A DNA stretch of 64,000 nt from Pleurostoma richardsiae. Lineage: Eukaryota > Ascomycota > Sordariomycetes > Calosphaeriales > Pleurostomataceae. The stretch spans positions 372,001-436,000 of the forward strand of contig JANBVO010000029.1 in the NCBI GenBank assembly GCA_030052745.1, read 5' to 3'. The notes under the pieces were generated by a model. The model searched no databases and was not told the origin of the DNA. It saw only the letters and a list, made by a program, of their open reading frames with translations. The position numbers and the translations under genes were made by a program. Of the stretch, positions 3,315-60,870 are shown piece by piece; positions within the stretch are counted from its first letter, which is position 1, and each line of letters opens with the position of its first letter.

Positions 3315-3414
3315 GCCTTGCTAGCTCAATCGGTAGAGCGTGAGACTCTTAATCCGCCTCCCCGGCGTGACTCATGATATCTCAAGGTTGTGGGTTCGAC
3401 CCCCACGTAGGGCT
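3315..3414 (+). tRNA. tRNA-Lys(CTT) with 27-nt intron
   Basis: A full cloverleaf can be drawn. The acceptor GCCTTGC pairs with GTAGGGC (3407-3413, with G-U pairs), the D arm is GCTC/GAGC, the anticodon stem TGAGA pairs with TCTCA, and the T arm is GTGGG/CCCAC with a TTCGACC loop. The loop CTCTTAA gives anticodon CTT (Lys). The intron (3352-3378) sits at the usual place, one base 3' of the anticodon. The mature length is 73 nt before CCA addition. A copy with an identical mature sequence lies at 23724-23822. Confidence 0.95.
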
Positions 3415-23723: not shown

Positions 23724-23822
23724 GCCTTGCTAGCTCAATCGGTAGAGCGTGAGACTCTTAATTCTCCCGTTCTGGGGTATCAGGATATCTCAAGGTTGTG
23801 GGTTCGACCCCCACGTAGGGCT
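23724..23822 (+). tRNA. tRNA-Lys(CTT) with 26-nt intron
   Basis: The mature sequence is identical to the tRNA at 3315-3414: same acceptor, D, anticodon (CTT) and T arms. The intron (23761-23786) lies at the same position after the anticodon but differs in sequence and is one base shorter. The ten bases after the tRNA (TCAATTCCCT) are shared with the first copy. Confidence 0.95.
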
Positions 23823-37894: not shown

Positions 37895-40238
37895 AGGACG
37901 ACTCGACGGCCGCGCTCTTACCGCCGGCGATCACTGGGTATCAACCGCCAGCTCTCTTCTAGCATATACTCTCACCACCGCCGTCTCCGTGTACAGTCTT
38001 GGCGTACCATGCGCGCGGTCGCTCAGGCGGCCCTGATTCGCCATGCCGCCGCCGACACGAACACCCTTTCTAGCCCTGTTAATGTCACATCTCCTCCGAC
38101 AACTCCTGCTGCGTTTGCCCGTCCACGACCGTTTCCTTGGTAATGAAGACTTATTGGTTGGATTGTAATGAGGGGAACAAAAACAGGTCAAGGAAAGGAA
38201 AAGTGATGGAGGGGGAAAATAAAAGGAACAAGCATTGTCGTCGAGCCTTGCTAATTCTCTGCCCATCATCAAGTGGAACATATCGTCCCTTGGTTGCTTC
38301 TTCTTTTTCTCTTTCGTCCACCACACATGCATGGATCGGATTGTTGCCGGGGTTGCATCACTGCATGCATGCATTAGCTTATTTCTCTGCCTCTCGCGGC
38401 GAGACACAAACCCCCCCCTCTCCGACGAGTTGATGGCGAGCTTCTCATGGAACGCATTTTGAGCACGTGTATTATCGAGACTGGCTGGCATACATAAAAG
38501 CACGAAGAGACAGAGCATGATACCCAGGAATCTCTCGTTTTATCTGGCGGATACAGTGAGATCTGAGCGGCCATATAGTCACGGTCCGTCGCGTGAAGGG
38601 GAGCAATCGGATAGTAAGGTTTTGCCCTGTACTGATCAGGCGTGAACTCGGCCCTTCCGCAACATCGCTAGTTATGAAGCAGATCGACAGGAGATAGACC
38701 CATCTGTTGTCACCGCTGAGCCGAAGCCCGATCGCGCTCACCGTCGCACTAACTAACCTACCTTAGGCACGTTGGCCGACTTGAAGCTGCCATATCAGCG
38801 GAAATGGTACCCGGGCAGACTGGTAAAGCCGGACCTAATTTCAAATATTAAGTTCGATGATCTTATTAGAGAACGGTAACGCACCTCAGAGAGTACGTAA
38901 CAGAACCCTGCGCCGAATGAGGAGCATACCGAGCAACCAAACACTGTCCCAGCGTTGGTGACAGCCCGATATTCACGGTCTGTGGATATAATGAAGAAGC
39001 CGAGGCGCCTACTGCCTCTGTCTTGAGCTTGCGTGTGTCATTAAACTGAACAGTGTCAACGCTCTCGGAACCCTCGCCTTCAGGACGAGCCACCTTGTTC
39101 GAACTTGCTACAATCTTGAGACCCCGAGGCCGTATCTTCACCACGTGTGCTTTAAGTCACTGTAGAGGTTCAGGGTCCTCCTCGCCCACTGAGTTGCTCT
39201 ACTGCCGACGCACACCGCTGGGTCATCCAGATACTCATGTGCTGTGCAAATTTGATTACCTAAGACAGCTCTGGTGAAGTCTGCGTATCAGCGGCTCGGT
39301 ACTGTGGCCGTGACTTGACCGCATCAAGTCTAGCGGGATCTGAGTTTTGGCGGATAAAATCACTGCACCCTGGAGAGAAGGCGCAGCCTCCCACTGGCCA
39401 AGCAGGGGCAGGTACATGTATTTTGTGCACGGAGTACATTGAGGTGATCGAGAGACAGAAGTCATGACGATAGCAATTGATCTCGAGGGAGGACCTTCAG
39501 ACTCCCCTCAGCACCTTCTTCGCGCTCCTCAGCCGATACGTCCTTTCTCTAGGAAGGGAAGTGAGCGAGACGAGAGTAGGCGAGGCTCGTAACCAACTGA
39601 CGTGCTGCTGAGATAAGAAATGATCCGTTTGTTGCCAACCCTGATTCTGCAACATCATCCAAAAAAGGGTACCTACATTTTCGGGGCGTTATGCTTTAGC
39701 AGACCCACACTGTCTGCACTGTGCCGAACCACTCCGGAAAAAGAGTTGAGCTTCACAGTGCACAGTGCCGGTTCCTTCCCCCTCGTTAGCGGACCTCTTG
39801 CATCAGCCCAGATTGGTGAGGAATCGACCCATTCTCCACACCCTCAACCGCAATCCCATGGTCCCAGCCCCCGCCTCCCTCCGAAACGTGAACTTTACGG
39901 AGCGCCTGGGTGTACTGTACCGTACCGTGCAGGCATTGCAGGCACTGTGCCTCAGTGCCCTTCCTCCCTTGCGCGCCGTATCTGATCTGCTAATCTCCGC
40001 ACTGCGTCTGGCACCCAGGCACGAACCTCGCACTTCCCTCACAATCGGCATCGAATCGCATTCGACGGTCTGCCTTAGCTGTAAAACCACCGCCAACCTA
40101 CACCACCCCAGCAGCTGCAGCACCCGCGAGCACCGTTCTACACCGCACAGAGATCGAAGGAATTTCCTTCGTCTCTTTTTCCCTTTCCACTGCCCGGAGC
40201 CGATCGCATGTCGGTCAAGTGATAAATCCGTTTTTATC
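37895..40238. other. 2.3-kb intergenic region and long KDM4 leader
   Basis: The first 600 bp are the presumed YAG7-like 3' region. No gene was recognised in 38500-39600. From about 39850 an open frame without stop leads in frame into the demethylase ATG. Around 39700-39960 short GGCAC/GTGCC palindromes recur. Confidence 0.4.
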
Positions 40239-43200
40239 ATGTCGACCGAAGCGACCGGCGCTGTGGCGCCGGACGAATCGACAATCGCCGTCATGCACCC
40301 AGCACCTCCCCAGCTCGGCGACCTCGAGAGCTCCAAGCCCACCGGTTTGCATTCCCCCCCCGACTCCAACAATGACATGAAACTCGACGGCAGCGACTCC
40401 GAGCTTAGCGATCTGGACGACGCCGCCATTGCCGACGACCTCAAGGATGTCAACCCCCCTGTCGAAGTCGTCGACGACATCGGCGACGTCCTGCCCGACC
40501 ACTGGTCCGGCACCGTCCCCGTCTTTAAGCCCGCCATGCACCAGTTCAAGGACTTCAAGAGATTCGTACGTGGCACCGGTTACTTCCTAGTTCAAGGCGA
40601 GCCCCTCTGAATTGGTAATGGAGCTAACTGAGGGCTGCAGATGGAGAAGGTCGACTCCTATGGCATGAAGTCTGGCATCATCAAGATTATTCCCCCTGAC
40701 GAGTGGAAGAGCTCGCTCCCACCTCTGGACGACCTCGTCAAGACGATCCGTGTCAAGGAACCGATTAAGCAAGAGATCATGGGCTCCAACGGAACGTACC
40801 GTCAAGTCAACATCCTACATCAGCGCTCCTACAACCTCCCCCAATGGAGACAGTTATGCGACCAGAGCGAACATCAACCACCCGCGAGACGGGGCGAACG
40901 TCGTGCAAATGCGGACAAGCCCAAGCCTGCCCCTCGCACGCGGGCGGCTGCGGCTGCGGCTGCACCTGCTCCATCTGCTGGAGGCAGTAGCCCAGCGAAG
41001 AAGGGACGTCGGCGCGGGAAGCCTCTGAAGGGGAAAGCCAAGCGAGAATCCACCAAGGAAGATGCCGAGGAACCTATTGATCGGCCTATGACGCCTGTTT
41101 CTCCCAAGCCCGAGCCCCAGGGAGACAATCTCCTTGCGTCCGTGGAACAGGACCCCGGAATCAAGGAGGAAGACGATGAAGGTTGTGATGACACCCCACC
41201 TGTCCGACGGATGGGCTTCAGCCGTCAGGCGAAACCCAAGATCCAGTCAACATCCGCCCGCCGCAAGTACAGCAAGCGCGAGGGCTCTGCCGTCATCGAC
41301 GAGGCTGCGTTCAAGGATTGGGACTACCGTATGGACATATCCGACTATACCCCGGAGCGATGCGAGGAACTGGAGAGGATCTACTGGAAGACTTTGACGT
41401 ACGCACCTCCACTATATGGCGCCGATCTTCTCGGAACCCTCTTCGAAGAATCTACGGACACGTGGAATCTCAACAAGCTGCCCAACCTTCTTGATGTCCT
41501 GGGTACCAAGGTACCCGGAGTCAATACAGCATACCTGTACTTGGGGATGTGGAAAGCGACCTTCGCTTGGCACCTTGAAGATGTGGATTTGTACAGCATC
41601 AACTATCTTCACTTCGGTGCACCGAAGCAGTGGTACAGTATATCCCAAGCAGATGCTCGCCGATTCGAGGCCGCGATGAAGAGCATTTGGCCAACAGAAG
41701 CCAAAGCCTGTGACCAGTTTCTGCGTCACAAAGCATTCTTGATCTCGCCAGCCCACCTCAAGCAGCACTTCAACATTACGGTCAACAAATGCGTCTCGTA
41801 TCCTGGCGAATTCGTCGTCACCTACCCTTATGGCTATCACTCTGGATTTAACCTGGGCTACAACTGCGCAGAGGCTGTCAACTTTGCCCTGGAGTCATGG
41901 CTCCCCATGGGAAAAATTGCCAAGAAGTGCGAGTGCGCGGAAGCTCAGGACAGTGTCTGGGTTGATGTCTATGAGATTGAGCGTAAGCTTCGGGGCGAAT
42001 CTACAGAGTACGAGGAAACGGAAGATGAGGACGAAGAGGATGAGGATGACGACGAAGAGATGACCGGCCTTCCCACACCTACTTCGACCCATACCGTGCG
42101 AATCAAGGCCGCGAGCAAGAAGAGGAAGCGTGCGGCGGGTGCAAAAGACGGCAAAGAGAAGAAGGCAAAGAAGATTCGCCTTCGTGTCAAGAAGTACGTT
42201 GAGCCACCTTGCTGCTTGTGCCCTAACGATATACCCGGCGCCGAGATCCTCCCTACCGATGACGGGCGGAAAGCCCACCGTCTCTGCGCCCTGTATCTTC
42301 CGGAGACATACATCGAAACATTGGATGATAAAGAGATCGTCACCAATGTCGAAAACATCACGAAGGCGCGGCTTGATCTCAAGTGCCTCTACTGTCGTTC
42401 CAAGAGAGGTGCTTGCTTCCAGTGTTCACAGAAGAAGTGTGCAAGATCGTACCACGCGACTTGCGCGGCGGCGGCGGGTGTTTGGGTGGAGGAAGGCGAT
42501 GTCCCGGTCCACGGCGAAGACGGGACGATCTACAAGGAGCAGGCTTTCGACTTCAGTTGTCGTTTCCACCGGACCAAGAGAGATAAGAAGATGGATGGAG
42601 ATGCTCTGGAAGAAGACCAACGCACTCGGCGGGCCGCTGCCTCGACCAAAAAGGGCGACATTTGTCAATTACAGTACTACAGAGGTGACATATTTGCGGG
42701 CGTCGTCGTGGAGAACCGGGTCGATGAGGAGACTTTCCTCTTGGATATCATTCCAAACGGGTATGTCAGTATCAAAGATGTACGAAAACCAACGCTGACC
42801 TTTAGCAGTGACCGTGTCGAGGTGGAGTGGAAGTGGCTGCTCGTGCCTGATCCGGCTGATTTCCGACTTCCCAAGGCCCCTCCCAATGCATTACCAATGC
42901 CTACCTCGAGAAAGGCGAAGGACAAGATCAACGCGACGAAGCGGCAGCTCGAGGGCTATCCTCGAGCAGATGACCTATTCGTGGAGGGTGGCTTTACCTG
43001 GGCAGAATTCCACACATGCAAGACCGAGGACTGCACCAACAAGGCACAGGCCAAGGTTGACATGTCCAGAGCGGATCAAGTGTGGCATTATCTCGGAAAG
43101 ACGTCGACGGAATCAAAGGCGCAATACACCGAAGACCCCCGCAGGCCGCAACATAATGCCAAGAGTAACTTCCTCGATACAATACCAAAGCCTCCACCGC

Positions 43201-44833
43201 CTCCCCGCCCACAGCCTCGCGTATCCTATGGAGCGGCTCCGCCCTCTCAGTTACTCACCGGCGCAGCTCCGAAGAACGAGAAGCCCTACGTCTACAAACC
43301 CAGAAAACCAGTTCCCCCATTGGCATACGCCAGCCCGTACACGCAGCACCAATTCATGCCCAAGATGGCTGCTACTCCTCCAGCGCAACAGCTGCCTTAT
43401 AATGGAGAGCCAAGGCTCAGCAAACCTGCCATGCCGTTTATATCAGACAAGTTTGCGCCGATGGTGGGCAACGGGGCCTTGCAACGGCAACAATCAGCAG
43501 GGCCGACCATGTTTGTGCCTAAGCAGAACGTCCAGCTGCAGGCTAGCCCATGGCCAGCATCATCTGCCTTCAGAAGCCCCTATGGTCAGGGTGTCCCTCA
43601 GCAGGGAGCTGTCATGCCGAGCCAACCACCTGTGCAGACGATATCTCCACAACAGCTCTCGCTGTTTTCTACGACGCATACTCCGCAGCCGCCCCAGCTG
43701 CAGCAGCCACCGCAACCTCCGCGGCCTCAACAACCACCTCAGCACGCCTACCAGAAGTATGCATTCTTCCAGGTCAACCACAACCGGTAAGCATCCCACG
43801 CCTTTCCATTGTAGCAAAGGCACTCCTAACTGCTGGCATCGCGTACAGAGACTCTTCAAGGTATCGGACACCCTATACGCCTTGGGGCGGTTTCACCAAC
43901 GGCTATGAAGGCAATCTCCGTGCGCATCTCATGAGGAAACCGGACGCTATATTCAAAGATCGGCGCCTGAGCTTCGGATTAGGCGGTGGATTGCAGGGCC
44001 TCACGCGGCCACCGTCGCATAAATACAGCAGCTCGACCGGCTCATTGAGATCATCGCCGTTTAGCCCGTCACATGCCCGGTCTCTATCCGGGGCGGCTTC
44101 TCCCGCCTCGTCTCAGATGTCGCCGCCGCCGCTGCCGGCGAAGGGACATCAACGCGTCCCCTCGACGCCTAAGGCGCCATTACATCCTGCCATTCGACCT
44201 CAGTTTGGGAGTGCCTGGCAGCAAAGCCAGAACCCTACCCCGTCACAACCAACGCAGCACGGCCAAGTGGGTGCCACTATTGGAGCCCAGCAGCCGTCCG
44301 CGTCAACTTCCACCGCGGTGGAGGGGGTACGTCCGAGAACGGCAGAGGCTGATAGGTCATCAATGCCGCCGCCACCCGGGCCGCAGCACACTCCTGGTAA
44401 TACGAATAATATAACGGCGTCGGGTCCATATCCTTCGCCTCTTTCATTCGAACCGGATGACGACCTGGGACTGCAAGGCTCTCCAGCTCAGCAGCTAATG
44501 CAGCAGCTGCGTCGTATATCAGACCCAAAAGATTCTCCCTTCAGGCGATCACGACCTGGGTCGCGTGCGAGCTCACGAGGCCACACTCCCAGATCGAGCC
44601 TCAACCAGCTGCCGACAATAAAGCCACATGGAACGTGGGAGCAACAGAGACCGGTCCCGGCTCCGGTGCAGCAGGCTACTGCAACGCTGCAGCAAGCAAC
44701 TGCGACGTCGCTGGCCGCAAACGGTGTCGCCGTCCGCGAATTCCCCGAGGATCCTGCTGAGTCAATGGCTCTGGTCGAGAAGATGATGATGAACCTCCGC
44801 AGAGCGAGTGAGAGGAGTTCGCTCGGTACTTGA
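40239..44833 (+). CDS. KDM4/JMJD2-type histone lysine demethylase (JmjN-JmjC-PHD)
   Basis: Three exons (40239-40565, 40641-43786, 43849-44833) give about 1,485 residues. Domains in order: an acidic start; JmjN at about residues 93-135 (VPVFKPAMHQFKDFKRF...IIPPDEWK); a Lys/Arg-rich linker; JmjC at about 380-560 with the Fe(II) ligands in WHLEDVDLYSINYLHFG (H, E) and in GYHSGFNLGYN (second H), plus NKCVSYPGEF; an acidic run; a PHD/extended PHD zinc region (CCLCPNDIPGAEILP...HRLCALYLPE, then CLYCRSKRGACFQC...HATCA); and a long Pro/Gln-rich tail. The enzyme should remove methyl groups from H3K9 or H3K36 using 2-oxoglutarate, Fe(II) and O2. A 48-nt stop-free segment (42761-42808) has perfect splice signals and may be a further intron. 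Confidence 0.93.
42761..42808 (+). other. Possible 48-nt in-frame intron in the KDM4 gene
   Basis: GTATGT at the 5' end, a CTGAC branch-like site and CAG at the 3' end; 48 nt is divisible by three and has no stop, so the protein reads on either way (PNG-DRVEVEW when removed). Confidence 0.55.
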
Positions 44834-46721: not shown

Positions 46722-48703
46722 CTACTCTACCCGGACTTTGTTGACCTTCACCTTAACGTGCTTGAAGTTCCTCGCCGTTCCGTAGTCCCGCCACTTCATG
46801 GAGGCTTCATCGGTGTCATACAACTCCATGTCCAGCAGGAGGAAGAAGTTGGCAAGGCAGAGATAAAGCTCCAAGTAAGCGATGCTGGTTGCCAGAGTCA
46901 GCAATACGCAAGGGCGGATGGGATATGCTGCATGAGATACTCACACGAAACCAATGCAGGAGCGCGACCCCTTGGAGAATGGCACGAGCCACTTGTCGAT
47001 GTCGCTCGTGTCGTCCGCAAGCCATCTCTCCGGGATCCACTCCGTGGGGTTCTCGAAGATGTCGCCGTTGTAGTGGATCGGCCTGATCGCGGACTGGACG
47101 ATGGCCTACACAGAAGGGAAAGGAAGGGCCAAGTCAGTCCTCATGAAGCTTGGACGATATGGCTCCAGGGGTGGAATGTCTTACGCCAGGAGGGATGAAC
47201 TTTCCATCAACGTATGCACCGCCCTCGGGTACCACACGGGGCAAGTTGCCGGGAATTGGTGTTCCTGCTCTCAGAGACTCCTTGATCACAGCACTCTGGG
47301 GATTTAACAAGCCGTCAGTTCTAGGATTACCGGAGATTTGTCGGTCCTGGGATGGCTTCACTCACGAGGTACGGGAGGTGGCACACGTCGCGGTACTCCA
47401 GAAGCCCCTTGGCGTTCCGGGGCACCTGCCTCAACTCCTCCCGGAGCTTCTCCATCTTGTCGGGGTGCGTCAGCAAGTAGTACGTGGAGTAGCTGAGAGC
47501 GTAGCTGGTCGTGTCAGTGCCGGCGAAGCAGAAGATGAACGACTCGTCGACTAGGCTCTCGTGGCTCGGGGTCTTGTGCCCCTTTTCCTCGTTGGGGCGG
47601 AGCAGCAGGTCAAGCAGCGTCGGCCGACCGCCTTCTGCAGTATAGACGCCGCGGTTGTGACGTTCGGCGACCTCCTCGATCCACTTGGCGCATTCCTAAG
47701 GAGATGTGTGAGTGTGAGAGTTACATGGCTCCAAGTCGAGCAGTCATGAGGGCATGCTGTGCTGTCATAGACGCACCAATCGGAACTGAACGTAGCCTGG
47801 AGCGACTAGATTTGCGAAGCTGAGCGGCAGGCGCACAGCAATGCGGTTCAGGACGGGGAGGTGCTTAGCAGTCATCACTCGGTCTGAGAATGTGTCCATG
47901 GCCCGCAGAAACGGAGGGTTGGGGTCCTCAGACTCAATGAGGTTCAAACTCTTGTCGAAGAGGACCCTTGTGACAGTGTCGACCTGAGTTGAAATATGTT
48001 AATCTCGTTTCACAGTGCTTTACGTGGCTTGCGGCTCGACCATACCGTTACAGACCGGTATACTTGCTGGATGTCCCAAGGCCGTCCCTCGTCTATGGTC
48101 TGCTGAGCTCTCTTTAGACCCCGCTCGACGATGCTCAGGACCGACGGAGCGAGCTTCTCAATAGACTGCCTAGAGAAGACGGACTTGATAATATCGTACC
48201 GCTCCTTGTGCTCCGCCTGGTTGACGAACATGAGCAGGGAATGCTTAACACCAAAAGCCTCATAGAAACTGGGGTCTTTCATATATTTCGTCCCGTGGCT
48301 GTAGACCCTGGATCGGTGTGAGTGGTAGCTGATGCACTTGACGCAATTTCAACTTACTCCCGGTAAAACGAGAGATCCTGGACGTGGAGCCCGTTGGGGC
48401 TGATCCTGACAACAGGGCCTGGAGAGAAGGTTAGCCTACCGTCGAAAGCGTAAGTTGAGAGATAGATTCTTTGGTACCATATTTCTCATGCAGTTTTGGA
48501 TATTCTCTAATGTAGTTACCGTCGAGTATGACATCCTGATAGAACTCATACCACCCAGTCAGGGCAGCGAGTCGAGGGCCGGGAATCTTGCTGAGACGAT
48601 GGAAAAAGAGCCGCCAGATTACGCCACCAACCAAGTAAACTCCTACCAGCAGGGCTGCTTGTCCAAGTAGATTGGTTCCGTCATATCTCAAGAGTGTCAC
48701 CAT
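46722..48703 (-). CDS. Cytochrome P450, CYP58/trichodiene-oxygenase-like
   Basis: About eight exons joined by short GT-AG introns give a P450 of about 520 residues with no break found. An N-terminal membrane anchor ([20 protein letters not shown]) is followed by [41 protein letters not shown], the I-helix [11 protein letters not shown], the K-helix ESLR (ExxR), PERW and the haem-binding loop [10 protein letters not shown], whose Cys is the axial ligand. The N-terminal part resembles the Tri4/CYP58 group of ascomycete terpenoid oxygenases. It is divergent from the sesquiterpene synthase at 50044, 1.34 kb away, which suggests that it hydroxylates the product of that enzyme at the ER membrane. 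Substrate is inferred only. Confidence 0.88.
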
Positions 48704-50043
48704 GGTGAATAACGACTGGCTTTTTAATCATGAAAATCGTGGTTAATACTCCTCACTTGACGGTCACAGATACTGAGGGTTGGAGTGCGGAGAGGGTGGT
48801 CAGAGCCTATATGCGCCGGTGAAGGAGCCAGTGAGGAGAGAAATCGGGGAAAGGGGGAGCGTCGGATGGAGGAGCAGAGACCCGAGGAGCAGGTCCTGAT
48901 ACCGGGGCCGGTCCTGATTCCAACTCGCCCATACCTTGCAGGAGGTTACCAAATGGTTGCTGTAAGACCTGCGAGTGTTAGCGTGCGCATCGCTGCAGGT
49001 TGCAGACTGCATGTCCTAGTGTTAGTCGGGAGGATTACAGGACGGCCACGCCAAGGATGCCGCTGTAAGTGGACGCCGATAACCTCACATGTACGATGGA
49101 TCCTTTGAGTCGTCTGCAACTACGAGGTAGGCCTTACACGTGTCAGTGTGGACCCCGGACTTGCCAATAGCATTTACGTCTCCAAGCGCATATTGCGGAA
49201 CTCATATGACGAGGGTGGCTAGGCCGGGGAGCCTATAGGATTATAGTCCTGTCTTATTGCAGTAGGCCGCAGCCCGAACCCAGTAATGGTAACCGTCTGA
49301 TGTTCGGTGCGGTCCGTTGTAGACTCCCTGCTGCAGTAGCTGGGTAAGCGACTCCGCACCGATGGTCTTGCATTTGCCAATCGACCAATGCCAGATACCA
49401 CCCATGGGACATAAGACGGCCCTCCGACAGGCCGGGCCATCCGTAGACATTATCCTGTGGAGACTCCTGGGCAGAGCAAGCACTATCTTGACCAGCCAGG
49501 TGTCCCGAGAATACTCACCTGCATGTGTTCCAGAGTCTGTAAATGTGAGACGGAACCGCGGACTAACGGTGACCTCGGTTGGACGGACATGAGGGGCCAC
49601 AGTTGGGCAGTGACGATAGCATATCCTTCCCAGTTCGGTCATCCGGCCTATAGCTGTCGTAACCTGAGTGCGTGCTGGCTGCACTTGCTGTCGTGATGGT
49701 GCGGAGAGAACTGGAGCGGAGGAGTTGCTAAGCGTGGATGCCGGACTCGGAGTTAGATAAGGTATGCCGGCGTTCCTTTGGCCAGCACACCACGAAGGTG
49801 ATGTCAAGGGATCAGGGGCCAAGGAGCGGCCCCAGGACAGCTGTTCCGCCCTAGACGGGTAGGCAGTCAGCTCGCCTGCGTCTGGTGTGGGCTGGGTACG
49901 ATATAATTGGCACACCAGCAAGTTGACTCCATCTCTACTGCCAAATCCCGTATCCAGACAACCCTCCACCACCTCAGAAATACCAGTCCTCCTGCCCTCT
50001 TTCCCCCCCGCGCCTCCTTCCCAGCAGGACGGTAACCATCAAG
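48704..50043. promoter_or_regulatory. Shared upstream region of P450 and terpene synthase
   Basis: 1.34 kb between divergent start codons with no gene in it (frames up to 243 codons on the minus strand, 49241-49972, have no family signal). It should hold the promoters of both genes. A Pro/Ser-type pyrimidine tract lies just before 50044. Confidence 0.5.
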
Positions 50044-51780
50044 ATGTGTCTCTCGCCCACCTTCCTTGAGTCCCTGAAGACCCTCTGGGTGACACTGCGC
50101 CGGCGTGACGACGCTACCAAAGCGCCAAAGATGGCACCCGCATCTATCGATGATCCCGTGGTCGAGGAAACGCGCCCGTTGGCGGTGCCACTACCCGCCG
50201 GAGGCAGGACGTTGTACTTGCCTGACATGTTTGCCTCGATAATGTCCGTGGACCCTCCTCTGAACAAGCACTTTGACAAGGTCAAGGGCGAGGCAGAGGA
50301 GTGGATTATAAAGTAAGGGGCTTATGACACTTTTTTTTCGAGAAATGGGTAATTCTTGGCTAAGCACTTATATGAAGGACGTTGCGACTCGGCGAGAAAG
50401 AAGCCCGGAAGATCCCAAAGATGGGATTGACCTACCTGGGAGGCGTCTGGGTTTCGGAAGCAGACGAGGAGGCACTGCGAATGGTGGTGGATTGGCTGCA
50501 CTGGGTAAGGGAGCCCCTAACAAAATCTCAACCGTGCATACTTGCTAATCCAAAAGCAAAGGTTTTCTTCTTTGATGATCGTGAGTCTCCAGGCTTCCAG
50601 GACATGATCAGGCCCAGTGCACTATGTCCTTATTGATTTTGCACGTATAGAGTTCGACGAGGGACACCTCAAAGAAGATCCTGTGAAGGCGGCAGAGGAA
50701 GTCTCAGCGACTCTCGCTCTCATGAATGACGATCATCCCATAGTTACGGTCGAGCAAAATCCCCTGAGGCATGTTTTCCAATCGACCTGGAAACGTTTCC
50801 AGATGGTAGGTTACCCAAGGCGCCCAGGTCGACAGAGACTGACCGGTACCTTCAGAGAACGTCACGAGGTGTGCCCCTAGTCTCTCTTCTCCCTAGAAAA
50901 ATCGTTCCTCCGCAGTATCTTTTTGCTAAAATCTCTCAAGCACTACAAGCGAGGTACAAGCGTTCCGTCGCGGAATTTTGTGATGGCCTCCTCGGACAAG
51001 TCGGCGTTTGTCATGACTCTGTGCAGCTCGACACCTCTGGTTACATGGACTTTCGGCGCCTGTCCATCGGCGCTTACCCATGCCACGAATTGGTCGAGTG
51101 AGTATCTACTGCATGACGGCTGTTTCGTCCTTGACTGTCTGGCTGACCTGCTGCAGATATGCACACGGTCTGGAAATCCCCCAGAGAATGATTGACCACC
51201 CCTCGATTAAGGAAATTCGTTGCGTCTCGGTAGACCTTGTGCTACTGTGAGTAGCCAATGAACAGTACCTAATTCTACACGATTTGCTAATGAACTACCG
51301 TACTTCAGTCATAACGATGTGCTCTCTTACCGAAAAGACCTGGTACGTGGGTCGCGTATATCTCCATCACTGTCCCAACTGCTTGGCTTACTCTATTTTA
51401 CAGAAACTGGGTGTTTTCCATAACATGATCCATGTTCTGCGCAACCACGGTTTGGACGAGCAGCAGGCTGTCACTCGGATTGGAGAGATGCTCGATGAAT
51501 GCTCCAGGCGGTGGTATATCTCTCTGGCACAACTACCCATCTGGGGAGAGCAAATCGACAAGGCAATGCTGAGATACATATGGGGATGCCAGTGCATCGC
51601 TCTAGGCAACCTACACTGGAGGTGAGTAGCTGAATCCCCGAATGCATCCGGAATCATAGCTTGAGGTATTAATAGGCATTGGCTTACAACTTATCCAGTT
51701 ACATGACTGGCCGCTACCTCGGCCCCGAAGGGGACCAGGTCCGTGCGAGCCGCTTGATGTACGTTCCGAAGTATGACTAA
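50044..51780 (+). CDS. Class I sesquiterpene synthase
   Basis: Ten exons (50044-50312, 50378-50504, 50562-50580, 50651-50805, 50856-50868, 50941-51097, 51157-51246, 51309-51342, 51404-51621, 51699-51780) join without stop to 387 residues, usual for fungal sesquiterpene synthases. The aspartate-rich Mg2+ motif is FFFDDQFDEGHL, split by an intron after DD; the NSE-type motif is LLHNDVLSYRKDL (N, S and K/D positions kept). A WKRFQMRTSR element, HNMIHVLR, RRWY, GNLHWSYMTGRY and the C-terminal RY follow the family order. The enzyme should ionise farnesyl diphosphate in the cytosol and cyclise it. The product cannot be predicted. Exons of 19 and 13 nt are needed to keep the frame. The neighbouring P450 is the likely tailoring partner. 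Confidence 0.9.
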
Positions 51781-54124
51781 ATGACTATGACGCCTCATCA
51801 CGATCTAAGGGCGGCAATTCTGCTATGAGAATTATCAATTTGAGTCTCTAGGCGGCGCTACGGTAATTGTTTTTGAGTGAACATGGAAGACAGACGACAG
51901 CGAGAGCTTTTGGGGGCTGAGTATGTGTTTACGACATGGCGCTCAATTCCAACTTGTTTTAAATCACTAGAATGATAAATTGCGATTGACCTTATATCCT
52001 ATCATTTCAAAGAGAGTACATTATGGTCTCATGCTTGCTTGTGACGATAACTTACATGGTTACGTTTGTATCTCCAGGGGTTGATGAGTCCGTAAGAAGT
52101 GGACTTGTACGTTTTGTGGACAAACTTCTACTTAAGATCCCGAGTTCTGAGTTCGAGTCAACCTCTATTTCGATGAACGGTATACCGTATCCCTGCGTAC
52201 TTGATCTGCGTCCCCCAGCGGGCAGGAGGTCGGCCCGATCATGGGTGGGAGGGAGGAAGATAGGGATTGCCTATGCGTGCTGGAATGGTAGCCCGAGAAT
52301 GAGAAGCTGCCGGCCTAGCACACGAGGGCGTAGGCCTGGGACGATGAAGCGGGTCTAGGTCGAGGAAGCGCTTATTACCTTGGAGACCGAGACGCAGTGC
52401 GCGACCTTGTTGGCGAAAAGCTTTACACTAAGGAGGTGTTCGGGTTCAGTGAGATCTGGTCTACCTTACCGTCGACGTCGTCACTGTGTTCATCTCCAGG
52501 AATCCAATAACGGACATTTAAGGAATATTGAAAAAAAATTACCCTGAATTTTTTGATAAAGAAGCATCTGCGGTTGGAGGCAGACGTTCGAGTTCCTTGC
52601 CGTGATCAGTATCTCTTGGGGGTTTCATCGCTGACTTGGTCTAGAAGCCGACGCGAAACCCTCCGCCAGTGAGGACGAGGTCAATGTGCTCGTCACTAGT
52701 CACATAGACTACGGCATTCTTTGACTTGCACTGCTGGGTCTCCGAGTGGAAGCTGTGTTAGAAACCGTTGTCCGTCTCCTGCATGTGCGAGGTTCTTACT
52801 GAGGTATTTAGTCCACAATTCGCGGTTCGCAACCAACAGGAAGACATTTCTGATATTGCGACACGGTAAACGGGATGACGTTGAAATCCGAGCGTTAACT
52901 GGTAGATCCTTAAAGCTGCTTCCGATGGCGCGTTAGCAGCCTTGGTCGACTGCAAGGTATCGATAAGATTGGGTGGTATTCTCGGCCTTGTCTTGGGATT
53001 CAGAAAGAAGAAGAAATTTGGTCGTATAGAAGTAGATTGAATAAGTAGATTGAAGGGTTCGAGGCTCGATGAAGGGAAAGCCATCGTGAGTAAAAGGTGA
53101 TAATAAGAGGCATGGGGAAAAGAAGGGTTGCAGAAACAACAGCGTGAAGGAGATAGTGAGCAGACGGGAGAGACTGAACTGTGCATTCAACGACGAATGA
53201 GAGACGTGTGAGGCGCAGTTTCGACGACGTCGACGCTTCTGGAGTCGTTGGTCGACATGACATCGCTCGACTTTGCAATTACACCCACTTGAGGCCGCTT
53301 CCATCTTCAAACTAATGGTGAAAATGGCTTCCTCATATCTGCGCCCCCTGAGTCTGTTAGATCAAACTCAGTAATTGGTCTTGAGTTAAAATCAGCTCCC
53401 AGTCGCCCCGTTTACTGTTGATGTTCCCGCCCCAACCCAGAACAGATAAACCCCACACCTACCTCCAACACGTGCATTTGTCTCTTCAGTACTAGTTGAG
53501 AGCTCTTAGGAATTGAGACTCCTTTCTGACATACTCGGTTTAACTGTTGACCCGTCATAGCCTTTGGTATAATCGGCACAATAGGGAATCTCCTTACTGG
53601 ACACTAGCTATAGAGTCCTAGCTCAACCAGTTATCCGATATCCCGATTTCCCTCGAAGTATCTATGTAGAGAACTGATCGACAGCAATTGATTAGCACGT
53701 ATAATAACAGTCATTAATTAAAAGAGCGATATGGATCTGCCGTAATGACAACTAGTACGGAGTTTCGGAAGGGACCATGATATCAGTAATCACTGCTAGT
53801 ACGCTCGTGCCAGCAGCATCGGGTGACATGACTGACAAATAAACGCAACGTGCATGCTCTGCATTTCAGAGATTACTGATTGGTACAGAGGAGACACAAT
53901 ATTCCAGCGGTTTAGCTATTGCGTGTCAATTACGCCCTTGGACAGCAGCAAGACAGAGAGTTAGAATCATGTTGTCTTTACTAATACTCACGGCGCCCTG
54001 TCTGAACTACTGGTATATAATGGAGGTCCCATCCTCAAGGTATGAGAGGGTCTCCAACCTGAAAGGCGCTATCAGTAACTATCCCTTCTAGTACAACCGC
54101 AGCACGTGTAGACCTGAAGCCATC
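51781..54124. other. 2.3-kb spacer without a supported gene
   Basis: Short frames only. A minus-strand stretch about 52690-52960 stays open in one frame for about 70 codons (with several Cys) and a leader-like pyrimidine region lies upstream of it (about 53000-53250), but no complete gene could be built. Confidence 0.4.
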
Positions 54125-55259
54125 ATGCAGAGCGCCGTTTTCCTCGAAGCTATAGGAAAACCTCTCGTCCTACGAGAGAGACGTATCCCGGAACCACGCA
54201 GCGGATGGGTCCTTATCAAAATTGAGTCCGCAATGAGTATGTCGGATGCACTGCGTCTGTTTCTTCTTGACTTTGGTAAGCTAACACTGACACCCAGTCC
54301 TCCCGCACGACCAGAAGAGCTGGACGTTAGGGCTTTTCGTCGGAGACAAACTCCCCTACGTTCTGGGACACAACATCGCCGGGACCGTAGTGAGGCTCGG
54401 CGAGGATGTGACAGGATACCAGGTCGGTGACCGGGTCTTCGGCATGGGACGGGCAGATCTTTCTCTCCCCGATTCTGCCGGCCTCCAGCAGTACGCCCTC
54501 CTCGATATTACAACAACAGCCAAGATCCCAGATGGAACTTCCTTCGACCAAGCGGCGGGCTACCCCATCAACGCCTCCACAAGCGCTATCGCTCTCTTTT
54601 CTCCCAAAGGTTTTGATCTACCTCCTCCCTTCTCCATCCCATCTCCGTCGCACTTAGGAGACACCCTCACGCCGGACCTGACACCCAACCGATCTAAGAC
54701 CTTCGTCGTCGTAGGCGCCGGTGCCAACACCGGCAAGCAATTCATGCAGATGGCCCGCCTCGCCGGCGTCAGCCGAATCATCGCAATCGCCTCCGCCAAG
54801 AACGAGGCGACGCTGAGGCGTCTCGGGGCTTCCCATATTGTCGACCGGCACCTTCCCACCGACGTCATCAACGCTACGGTCCGCGCCATCCTAAACGACG
54901 GCAACGACGGCGCCCTGAATGTATACGACTGCGTGTCGGCCGACCACGTCCTGGCGCTGTCGCTGCTGTCTCGAAAGAACAAGGAGGCGCGGCTCGTCAT
55001 TCTGCTGCGCAATCCGGAGACAAGGGCGCTGGCTGAGAGAGAGGGACTGGATGTTAGACATATCCTGGCGTGGCCGGAGTGGCTGGAGCCGCTGAACGGG
55101 GTGTTTTGGGCGGCACTGCCCAAGTGGATCGCGGACGGGAAGCTAGAGGGACCAGAGTACCGCGTCATCGATGGGCTGGATGTTAGGGCTATCGAAGAAG
55201 GACTGAAGAGCTATGCTGACGGGGGTGCTGTTCCTCAAGTGGTGGTTAGGCCTCATTGA
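54125..55259 (+). CDS. Zinc-independent MDR oxidoreductase (ToxD/trans-enoyl-reductase-like)
   Basis: Two exons (54125-54236, 54298-55259) give 357 residues. The GroES-like N-terminal half has VLIKIES, then LPYVLGHNIAGTVVRLGEDV and QVGDRVFGMG; the Rossmann half has KTFVVVGAGANTGKQFMQMA and ASAKNEATLRRLGASHIVDR. The Zn-binding Cys residues of classical alcohol dehydrogenases are absent, as in the ToxD/quinone-oxidoreductase branch, which includes the trans-acting enoyl reductases of secondary metabolism. NADPH-dependent reduction of an enone or a polyketide is inferred from the family. It lies 2.3 kb from the terpene synthase in the same direction, so it may belong to the same cluster; this is not proven. 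Confidence 0.85.
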
Positions 55260-56894: not shown

Positions 56895-58540
56895 TCACGC
56901 CCGGATCTCCTTCTGCTCTTCAGCAGGCTTCTCAACGTCGCGACCGGTCTCCTCATCGGCACCCTCGCGGTAGAGGCCGACCTTCGTCGTCGTGAACGCA
57001 TCCGCGGTGTCGCGATACCACGGCCAGAAGTTAACGGCGAGCGCGTACGTCCACGCCGCGACGAAGAAACACAACGGCACCACCATGGCCAGCGCCGTGC
57101 TCCTCGCATCCGCCACGGCGCCCAGGAGAGGGGGCACGCACGCGCCGCCCACGACGCCGCCGACAATGAAGCCGGACCCACGCTTGGTGTGCCGGCCCAG
57201 GCCGCGCATGCCCAGGGCCACGATGGTGGGGAAGCAGATGGACTCGAAGAAGAGGGTGATGTAGAGCATGGACATGCCGGTGTTGCCGCGCTGGGTGATG
57301 CTGGGTGCGATGAAGATGATGCAGCAGGTCAGGAAGGCGAGGAAGACCCAGCGCGGACGGACGAAGCGCATGATGCCCACGCCGACGAAGCGGCCCAGCG
57401 CGAAGGCTCCTTGCGCGCCAGCGAGGAACTGTGCCCCCAGGGATGAGTCGGTGTTGGCCCGGGTCTCGGTGACATAATTGATGAAGAAGCTGTGAATGGG
57501 TCAGAGCGAGCACAAACCCTTGGGCTGAGGATGAGCGCACGAAGGACTAACCTTGCGATAGCCACCTGCGCACCGGTGTAGCACAGCTGGGCGAAAGCAG
57601 CGTGGAAGAGGCGGTACTGCTTGTAGAAGGGCTTGATTCCTTCGTCGGCATGTGTCTCCTCGGCCTGGAAGGCCATGTCGGCGTCGGTGATCTCCGGGAT
57701 CTCAGAGATGAAGAAGACGAAGGCTAGGAGCAGGACGAAGCAGGCGATGGCAAGATAGACCCATTGGACGTTCTGCAGGGCGCGCTGGTCGTCAAACTTG
57801 AAGAAGACGTAGGAGCCGAGGACGGGAGCGATGACGGTTCCAATGCCGTTGAACGCTTGAGATATGTTGATACGAATCTCGGCGAACCGGGGCGGACCGC
57901 ACACTGCAGGGGGGAATTGTCAGCCGTCAAGTACGATCAAGTACGGCTTGTGGGGATCGCCTAGGCTACTAACCGGTGATGTACGGGTTTGCTGCGGTCT
58001 CAAGGGAGCCAAGTCCATTGCCGATGATGAAGATGCAGACGCAGAACCCGGCAAAGGAATGATGCATTATGGCAGGGATAGCGAGGAGAGCACCCAAGCC
58101 GTACAAGCAAAGTCCCCAGATGAACACAGCCCGGTAGCTGAAGTGGCGGAGGATCCAGGCGGCATGGCCTAAGGAAGCGAGGGGATATGCGCTGGAGTCA
58201 CGGTTAGCGAAATCTTCGATGAGAAAGGTCCGAATAAGGGACGCCATACCCAAAGTAAGCTGCCTGCAATCCGCTCGATCGGGCCTTATTGATTCCTGTA
58301 AGTATACGGTGTCAGCAATTATGATCCCTTCGTATCACCAGAACATCACCCACCGAGCGTGTTCTGGAAGTGCTTGTTGAGGGTGTCGAGGAGGCCGTAG
58401 CTGAAGCCCCAGAGGAAGAAGAGAACAGTGACAAGGCAGATGGGATACAGCGACTCCCTGAGAGTCAGCTCAGCCGCTGTAGTCCTCTGCCCGTCAGGTG
58501 TGCGTAGAGATCGCTTTTTCCAGAACGCCTTGGTGAACAT
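56895..58540 (-). CDS. MFS sugar transporter, FucP (L-fucose permease)-like
   Basis: Several exons (first 58540 to about 58350, then a short exon INKARSSGLQAAYFG, one ending NGLGSLETAANPYIT, then RFAEIRINISQAFNGIGTV..., and a last long exon to the stop at 56895) join to about 480 residues. Family hallmarks are LFFLWGFSYGLLDTLNKHFQ, the LGSLETAANPYIT motif and AEIRINISQAFNGIGTVIAP, all typical of FucP-type proton/sugar symporters. Later helices include FESICFPTIVALGMRGLGRHTKRGSGFIVGG. About twelve helices are expected in the plasma membrane. Sugar specificity is unknown; related fungal proteins move fucose, glucose or galactose. Exon edges of the 5' half were read approximately. Confidence 0.85.
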
Positions 58541-59676: not shown

Positions 59677-60870
59677 TCATTCCTTATTTGGCTGTAAAAT
59701 AACGAAGCGACCCATCTTCGCCCCGTCCCTACTCGCTGTCTTGAATGCCTGAGCCCACTGCTCCAGATCGAACCTGCCCACGCACTTCATCCCTCTCCCC
59801 TCCCCTATCCTCAGAACACCAGTCTCCACCATGCGAATCAGCTCGTCCGCCTGCTGCGGCGTGTACATAAACGTCCCCTGAATTCGCAGGCCCTTGTGTA
59901 CGACCTGCCCATAGGGGATCTCCAAGTCGCCCATCACGCCGCCCATCAGGCTCGCACGGCCCCCGTACCGCAGACACAGGATCCCCGCCCTCGCATGCGG
60001 GAACGCTCCCGCCGACCGCGGGCTGATATCGAAGAAGACGTCGATCGGCCTGCCGCCCGCCGCTGCACGGATGTTCTCTTCGTCCGCCTCGGCACTACCG
60101 CTCATCCGCACCGTCGCAACCCGCGCCGGGTCGAGCGCCTCCAGTTCCCGGAGCGCGTCCTCGTTCCGCCCCATGGCCACCACCCGAGCGCCCATAGCAA
60201 GAGCCACATGAACAGCCGCGCCGCTGAACACTCCCGTCGCCGGCGCCACCAGCACCGTCTCGCCCGCCGCGACACCCACGTCGCGTAGCCCGCCGTACGG
60301 CACTGCCAGCGTGTATAGGGCCGCCAGATCCTCCAGGGCGTAACCCAGCCCGCTTGCGCCTCCCTCTCGGGAGCCCAGCAGCCTCGCCTCATCGAGGAGG
60401 TGCACGTTCTCGGCCGGCACCCGCGCAAGCTCGGCCCAGGTGCCGTCGCGCCACTCGTCCTCCATGAGCGCCCAGCTCTCGGGCGTGCTCCCCGCGTGCG
60501 TGCCTAGCCGGATCTGGTGCTGCTGCTGCTCCGGGTAGGACCCGCGCGTGCGCACCACGAAGTCCACCCAGGCCAGCTAACCCGGGCGGAGGTGCGGCGC
60601 GTCGGAGGGGGCGGCCGCGACGCGGGCGACACAGGGCCCGCCGGGCACGAGCGGGAGTGGGTACCGGTAGCCGCGGGGGTTGCCGCCGGAGTAGATGTCG
60701 GCGGCGTAATGGACGACGTTGCAGGCGAGGGGCCGGATGATGGCGGTGCCGGCTGTGGGGAGAGGGGTGGGCTTGGTGATGATGGTGCCGGGGAGGCTGG
60801 CGGAGGTGAAGGACAGGGCGCGGTAGGTTGCGGGGAGATTGAGGGCGGCGTGGGAGGCCATGGTTGTCAT
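59677..60870 (-). pseudogene. MDR alcohol/quinone oxidoreductase with in-frame TAG
   Basis: One long frame of 398 codons from the ATG at 60870 is intact except for a TAG at 60577-60579. The N-terminal half has the GroES-like core (IIRPLACNVVHYAADIY, YPLPLVPGGPCVARV); the stop falls in LRPG-stop-LAWVDF, where the family has Gln (PGQLVFVD-type), so a CAG to TAG change is likely. The rest is a complete Rossmann half: GVAAGETVLVAPATGVFSGAAVHVALAMGARVVAMGRNED, IDVFFDISP, GGRASLMGGV and a good C-terminus. No GT-AG intron can remove the stop. Either the gene died very recently, the base is a sequencing error, or the stop is read through. The family reduces carbonyls or enones with NADPH. Confidence 0.7.

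Follow-up and report, generated by a model that had tools for sequence, protein, structure and literature searches.

Whether a terpene synthase gene and its neighbours form a biosynthetic unit, and which chemistry such a unit would serve, is the question raised by a locus of Pleurostoma richardsiae (Calosphaeriales, Sordariomycetes), a wood-dwelling fungus with a genome of 39.4 Mb. The locus lies within a stretch of 64,000 nucleotides (i.e. positions 372,001 to 436,000 of contig JANBVO010000029.1, our contig C59; hereafter the window), where an initial annotation had proposed a compact sesquiterpenoid cluster consisting of a cytochrome P450 gene, a divergently transcribed sesquiterpene synthase gene and a gene for a medium-chain dehydrogenase/reductase (MDR). 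The analysis supports, with a probability of roughly 0.78, a two-gene sesquiterpenoid module in which a synthase of the BcBOT2 route is paired with a divergent P450 of the BOT1 group that would hydroxylate its tricyclic product. BcBOT1 and BcBOT2 are the corresponding proteins of the Botrytis cinerea cluster for botrydial, a well-known toxin of grey mould.

An intact and divergent synthase–P450 pair

All three genes were located where the annotation had placed them and are intact after intron removal (Table 1), as judged by gene models, Pfam matches and, for the P450 and the synthase, GT-AG introns (7/7 and 9/9, respectively). Frames that splice to such length and carry complete domains could hardly arise by chance. 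The P450 matched PF00067 at 9.2e-63 and the synthase PF19086 at 1.3e-44. Both core enzymes retain the catalytic motifs ascribed to them, namely AGTDTT, ExxR (i.e. ESLR), PERW and a further stretch of 10 residues in the P450, and DDQFDEG, NDVLSYRKD and WSYMTGRY in the synthase. The start codons are separated by the 1.34 kb reported for the divergent arrangement; this region, presumably a two-way promoter, contains one 18-nt direct repeat. The P450 exhibited 100% identity to the public P. richardsiae protein P0121. The public synthase model (i.e. P0001) has 354 amino acids and omits 33 residues (window 50806-51097) that are kept in the Cryphonectria and Neofusicoccum orthologues, and hence the ten-exon model is the better one; the deposited protein would miss part of the fold. 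Exon 5 of the synthase, of only 13 bases, is backed by a matching peptide in orthologues.

Family placement of the two enzymes

Among the best 60 of 67 solved-structure matches, the nearest relative of the synthase was BcBOT2 (i.e. presilphiperfolan-8beta-ol synthase; 8h6q, 339 bits). The class I fold was closest to that of BcBOT2, and the DDxxD-type motif, NSE-type triad, RY and aromatic F138 of this family were all present. No second BOT2-like gene was found in the genome with the window synthase as query; the sole other Terpene_syn_C_2 locus found (G000:C104:267694-268005, L001) was not matched by this query. A tree of 66 rows, rooted at the midpoint, was generated from the window synthase and 65 of the 119 listed non-self matches. 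The window synthase grouped with that of Cryphonectria parasitica (P0002), the closest among the matches listed at 67% identity (support 100/98), and the two joined four Botryosphaeriaceae sequences (98/87). Synthases of botrydial clusters, including those of Botrytis and Colletotrichum tofieldiae, formed their own 10-row clade (100/100), with the window synthase outside it.

For the P450, 120 of 802 matches were listed. The closest was again from C. parasitica (P0122, 71%) and has AGTDTT in common with the window protein. Many of the matches listed carry no specific name; the nearest that do were an 'elymoclavine monooxygenase' (Colletotrichum karsti, 52%), BOT1 (Colletotrichum siamense, 50%; others less) and CND5p (48% and 42%). 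These names and the nearness of the synthase to BcBOT2 lend no support to the analogy with Tri4 drawn in the initial annotation. In a tree of 63 rows (i.e. the window P450, a BOT4 fragment and 61 of the 119 listed non-self matches), the window and Cryphonectria proteins paired (100/100) beside a 37-row clade, within a 41-row clade (99/98) to which all four BOT1-named rows of the tree and a single one of its two CND5p rows also belong; the window P450 is a member of this BOT1-like group.

Linkage of the pair across fungi

Linkage was assessed by proxy, with equal-sized contigs matched by eye between the listed synthase and P450 matches. By this measure, out of 119 non-self synthase matches listed, 15 species or strains beyond the window carry both genes on a single contig (i.e. 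Cryphonectria, Xylariaceae FL0662B, three Colletotrichum, Whalleya, two Hypoxylon, Astrocystis, Stachybotrys, two Aspergillus, Nemania, Penicillium italicum and Apiospora hydei). This number is likely a lower bound because matches were clustered at 90%. Cryphonectria P0002 and P0122 were both assigned to a contig of 3,250,737 bases. Locus tags of the pair were consecutive in Colletotrichum salicis, C. orchidophilum and Nemania bipapillata; they are also successive in B. cinerea, where bot1 is given as Bcin12g06380 in a passage of PMC7695001 and bot2 as Bcin12g06390 in a passage of PMC9920419.

Synthase and P450 distances were compared by a Mantel test for all 15 linked pairs and the window (16 pairs, some public synthase models being partial). 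The correlation was strong (r 0.887, reached by 0 of 9,999 permutations) and stood at 0.85 (0/9,999) after removal of taxonomic rank, for which ranks were entered from general knowledge. Some groupings cross taxonomy in both trees (e.g. Stachybotrys with Xylariaceae FL0662B and Whalleya), consistent with the horizontal transfer that a section of PMC10482981 proposes for BOT clusters. By this proxy, the linkage is conserved and the two proteins have diverged in step. The pair is a real, intact two-gene module of the BOT1/BOT2 kind and is probably a working one, in agreement with the earlier view that the two genes belong together.

Several observations weigh against this interpretation. Contig size can indicate linkage only indirectly, and no P450 counterpart of equal contig size was seen for 104 of the 119 synthase matches listed, self excluded. 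Support was weak (84/46) for a sister relation between the 37-row clade and the window and Cryphonectria P450s. The other CND5p row (i.e. P0181, from Trichophyton) fell outside the 41-row clade, so that names alone prove little. No P450 of this group named from Botryosphaeriaceae was present among the 120 listed of 802 matches, although in the synthase tree this family comes next to the window after Cryphonectria; the pairing expected in related species was found in Cryphonectria and, within that list, not in Botryosphaeriaceae. Lastly, comparison of the presumed two-way promoter with the 500 bases preceding the MDR gene gave no common word of at least 10 bases, five words of 9 bases being shared.

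Predicted chemistry and the identity of the product

Going by its family, the synthase would ionise farnesyl diphosphate as its substrate, and 1,11 closure by the BcBOT2 route would yield a tricycle, either a sesquiterpene of presilphiperfolane type or one closely related to it. The divergent P450 would then hydroxylate this tricyclic skeleton, as expected for its group. In Botrytis, according to a passage of PMC9920419, the probotryane skeleton is hydroxylated at C-15 by BOT1, at C-10 by BOT3 and at C-4 by BOT4.

The window pair resembles BcBOT1-BcBOT2 in synthase family, P450 group and metal motifs. It is not a botrydial cluster, since it occupies a separate branch in both trees and contig C59 lacks a match to the BOT5-type acetyltransferase (PF02458; 0 of 13 matches). 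A complete botrydial pathway is unlikely to lie next to the pair because, in addition to the absence of PF02458, no Zn_clus match fell on C59 among the 150 scored of 497 candidates (a PF04082 transcription-factor frame is nevertheless present in the window, as described below) and the BOT4 fragment had a best full-length match in the genome of 34% identity, with another of 45% over 152 residues, BOT3 and BOT7 not having been searched for as such. Other P450 loci of the genome exhibited about 28-31% identity to the window P450 over long stretches.

Near the metal motifs, the window synthase differs from BcBOT2 by N134L, L139F and V284H (BcBOT2 numbering), and their closeness to these motifs suggests that the three positions may line the pocket. 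The Cryphonectria synthase has the same Leu134 and Phe139, with Gln at 284 instead of His. Position 284 is His or Gln in 11 of 120 sequences (i.e. 119 matches and the window), including the whole six-row window clade and the silphinene synthase PeniA, which has His.

A His for the usual I-helix Asp is unusual in a P450. This replacement (i.e. AGTHT) occurs in 21 of the 120 listed P450s, including P0125 and P0156, and the tree unites these in one group; the Asp/Glu/His states of the 61 scored rows can be explained by three changes. The window P450 retains Asp (AGTDTT) and lies outside the clades containing the Botrytis protein P0156, which presumably represents BcBOT1. The I-helix His might bear on botrydial-type chemistry; among the literature matches listed, none combined botrydial or presilphiperfolan with the I-helix. 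The passages on fungal P450s consulted gave no CYP number for BOT1. In the eight linked pairs with a His-type P450, residue 139 of the synthase was Leu in seven and Asn in one (Apiospora, where the model is doubtful); in the eight with an Asp-type P450, it was Ala in five, Phe in two and a gap in one. This pattern traces back to a single split of the tree and does not amount to repeated evidence.

These differences bear on what the synthase would make. It could produce presilphiperfolan-8beta-ol itself, with the P450 hydroxylating as BcBOT1 does to give simple presilphiperfolane alcohols. We put this at somewhat below even odds; against it stand the placement of the synthase outside the botrydial-cluster clade, the replacements at 134, 139 and 284, and an I-helix Asp where the clade of the Botrytis protein has His. 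A different tricycle of the same cation route, such as a silphinene-like hydrocarbon oxidised by the P450, appears rather unlikely. PeniA shares the 9-row set containing the window synthase (96/85) as well as the synthase family and His284; against this, a very long branch (2.54) leads to the PeniA group in a tree with only a midpoint root. The BOT and PeniA clades are told apart by 97 columns; the window synthase agrees with BOT in 38 of them and with PeniA in 16 and fits neither in the other 43, and it is therefore not simply PeniA-like. Identity to PeniA is 38%. Following PeniA, the penifulvin pathway employs the P450 PeniB and a flavin-dependent monooxygenase (part of PMC8902786). No such monooxygenase was recognised in the 20 window frames scanned with Pfam (i.e. 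19 of 48 selected open frames and one further frame).

Within the two-gene module favoured here, we tentatively propose, with less than even confidence, that the pair is an early BOT1/BOT2 module predating the Asp-to-His change, in which a synthase carrying Leu134, Phe139 and, at 284, a polar residue would make a tricycle other than presilphiperfolan-8beta-ol that a canonical P450 would oxidise to an undescribed compound. The suggestion in the initial annotation that the product may be undescribed is supported. Among the matches listed from the open-licence literature, neither reports on this synthase–P450 pair nor product tests for its branch were found, and the literature matches listed contained no work on P. 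richardsiae sesquiterpenes.

The MDR gene and other neighbours

Table 1. Features of the sesquiterpenoid locus (window coordinates)
Feature	Position	Strand	Product or length	Exons	Basis
BOT1-like cytochrome P450	46722-48703	minus	506 amino acids, 8 exons	48478-48703, 48358-48418, 48046-48307, 47777-47983, 47366-47695, 47185-47295, 46945-47105, 46722-46884	gene model, PF00067, motifs
Intergenic region, P450 start codon to synthase start codon	48704-50043	none	1,340 bases		
Class I terpene synthase, BcBOT2 (presilphiperfolan-8beta-ol synthase) family	50044-51780	plus	387 amino acids, 10 exons	50044-50312, 50378-50504, 50562-50580, 50651-50805, 50856-50868, 50941-51097, 51157-51246, 51309-51342, 51404-51621, 51699-51780	gene model, PF19086, 8h6q match, tree
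MDR oxidoreductase	54125-55259	plus	357 amino acids, 2 exons	54125-54236, 54298-55259	gene model, PF08240

The MDR gene does follow the synthase, as had been described, with 2,344 bases between the synthase stop codon and the MDR start. Its product matched PF08240 at 2.8e-13, PF00107 remaining under its cut-off, and is 100% identical to the public P. richardsiae protein P0241; the public P450 and MDR proteins of this species were both assigned to a contig of 456,406 bases. A three-gene cluster, with the MDR enzyme acting on the oxidised product, is improbable. The gene is intact and on the same strand as the synthase at a distance of 2.3 kb; set against this, a contig was listed for 58 non-self MDR relatives, none of which matched, by eye, the contig size of any synthase or P450 relative listed; Cryphonectria was absent from the 60 MDR matches listed; and the promoter regions share no word of 10 bases or more. 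Its nearest relatives among the matches listed were from Leptodontidium, Cadophora and Colletotrichum (47-50%). None of the tested regulatory site types was clearly in excess over shuffles; the strongest signal came from GATA sites in front of the MDR gene (24 of 500 shuffles reached the count). The earlier claim therefore holds for position and fails for membership: the MDR gene is a physical neighbour of uncertain relevance, with no sign of belonging to the conserved pair.

A repeat or mobile-element origin of the synthase–MDR gap was rejected; just one other match was found in the genome, of 64 bases, on a mitochondrial stretch. Window 52501-52564 equals contig C22 at 63 of 64 positions, and this C22 stretch (L018) has 25% G+C, seven tRNAs and frames resembling mitochondrial genes, so that the segment looks like a short mitochondrial insertion.

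Trichothecene biosynthesis employs a synthase (TRI5) and then a P450 (TRI4). A Tri4-like CYP58 enzyme with its own synthase is highly improbable here: two listed P450 relatives were automatically named trichodiene oxygenase (P0174, 44%; P0234, 32%), but P0174 sits in the His-type BOT1 group on a contig equal in size to that of the BOT2-family synthase P0092, P0234 lies outside the 41-row clade, and trichodiene synthase is absent from the best 60 of 67 solved-structure matches, which excludes nothing by itself. The relatives of the window genes are of other kinds, there being no direct comparison with TRI4 or TRI5 sequences, and, as had been stated, nothing at the locus makes it a trichothecene cluster.

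A transcription-factor frame with PF04082 (13435-15378) was detected 31 kb from the pair. Near the pair (window 39750-44830) lies a JmjC histone-demethylase-type frame with PHD-type fingers (40632-43787), the 3' end of which is overlapped by a 428-amino-acid open frame (43547-44830) without a Pfam match. To the right of the MDR gene are two minus-strand frames, one of MFS type (57332-57919; 26.4 bits, where the cut-off is 33.4) and the other a second frame of zinc-binding-dehydrogenase type (59680-60576). Two tRNA genes (3315-3414 and 23724-23822) were found by Rfam and not by ARAGORN as run; both may hold an intron because each is about 100 bases long.

Implications

The distribution of the pair suggests that the botrydial synthase and P450 belong to an old two-gene unit inherited together in Sordariomycetes, Leotiomycetes and Eurotiomycetes, of which the botrydial cluster would be one elaboration. 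The window and Cryphonectria versions offer an out-group for the origin of both the synthase product and the BOT1-type I-helix His. Three synthase positions and one P450 position yield testable predictions on how products may differ.
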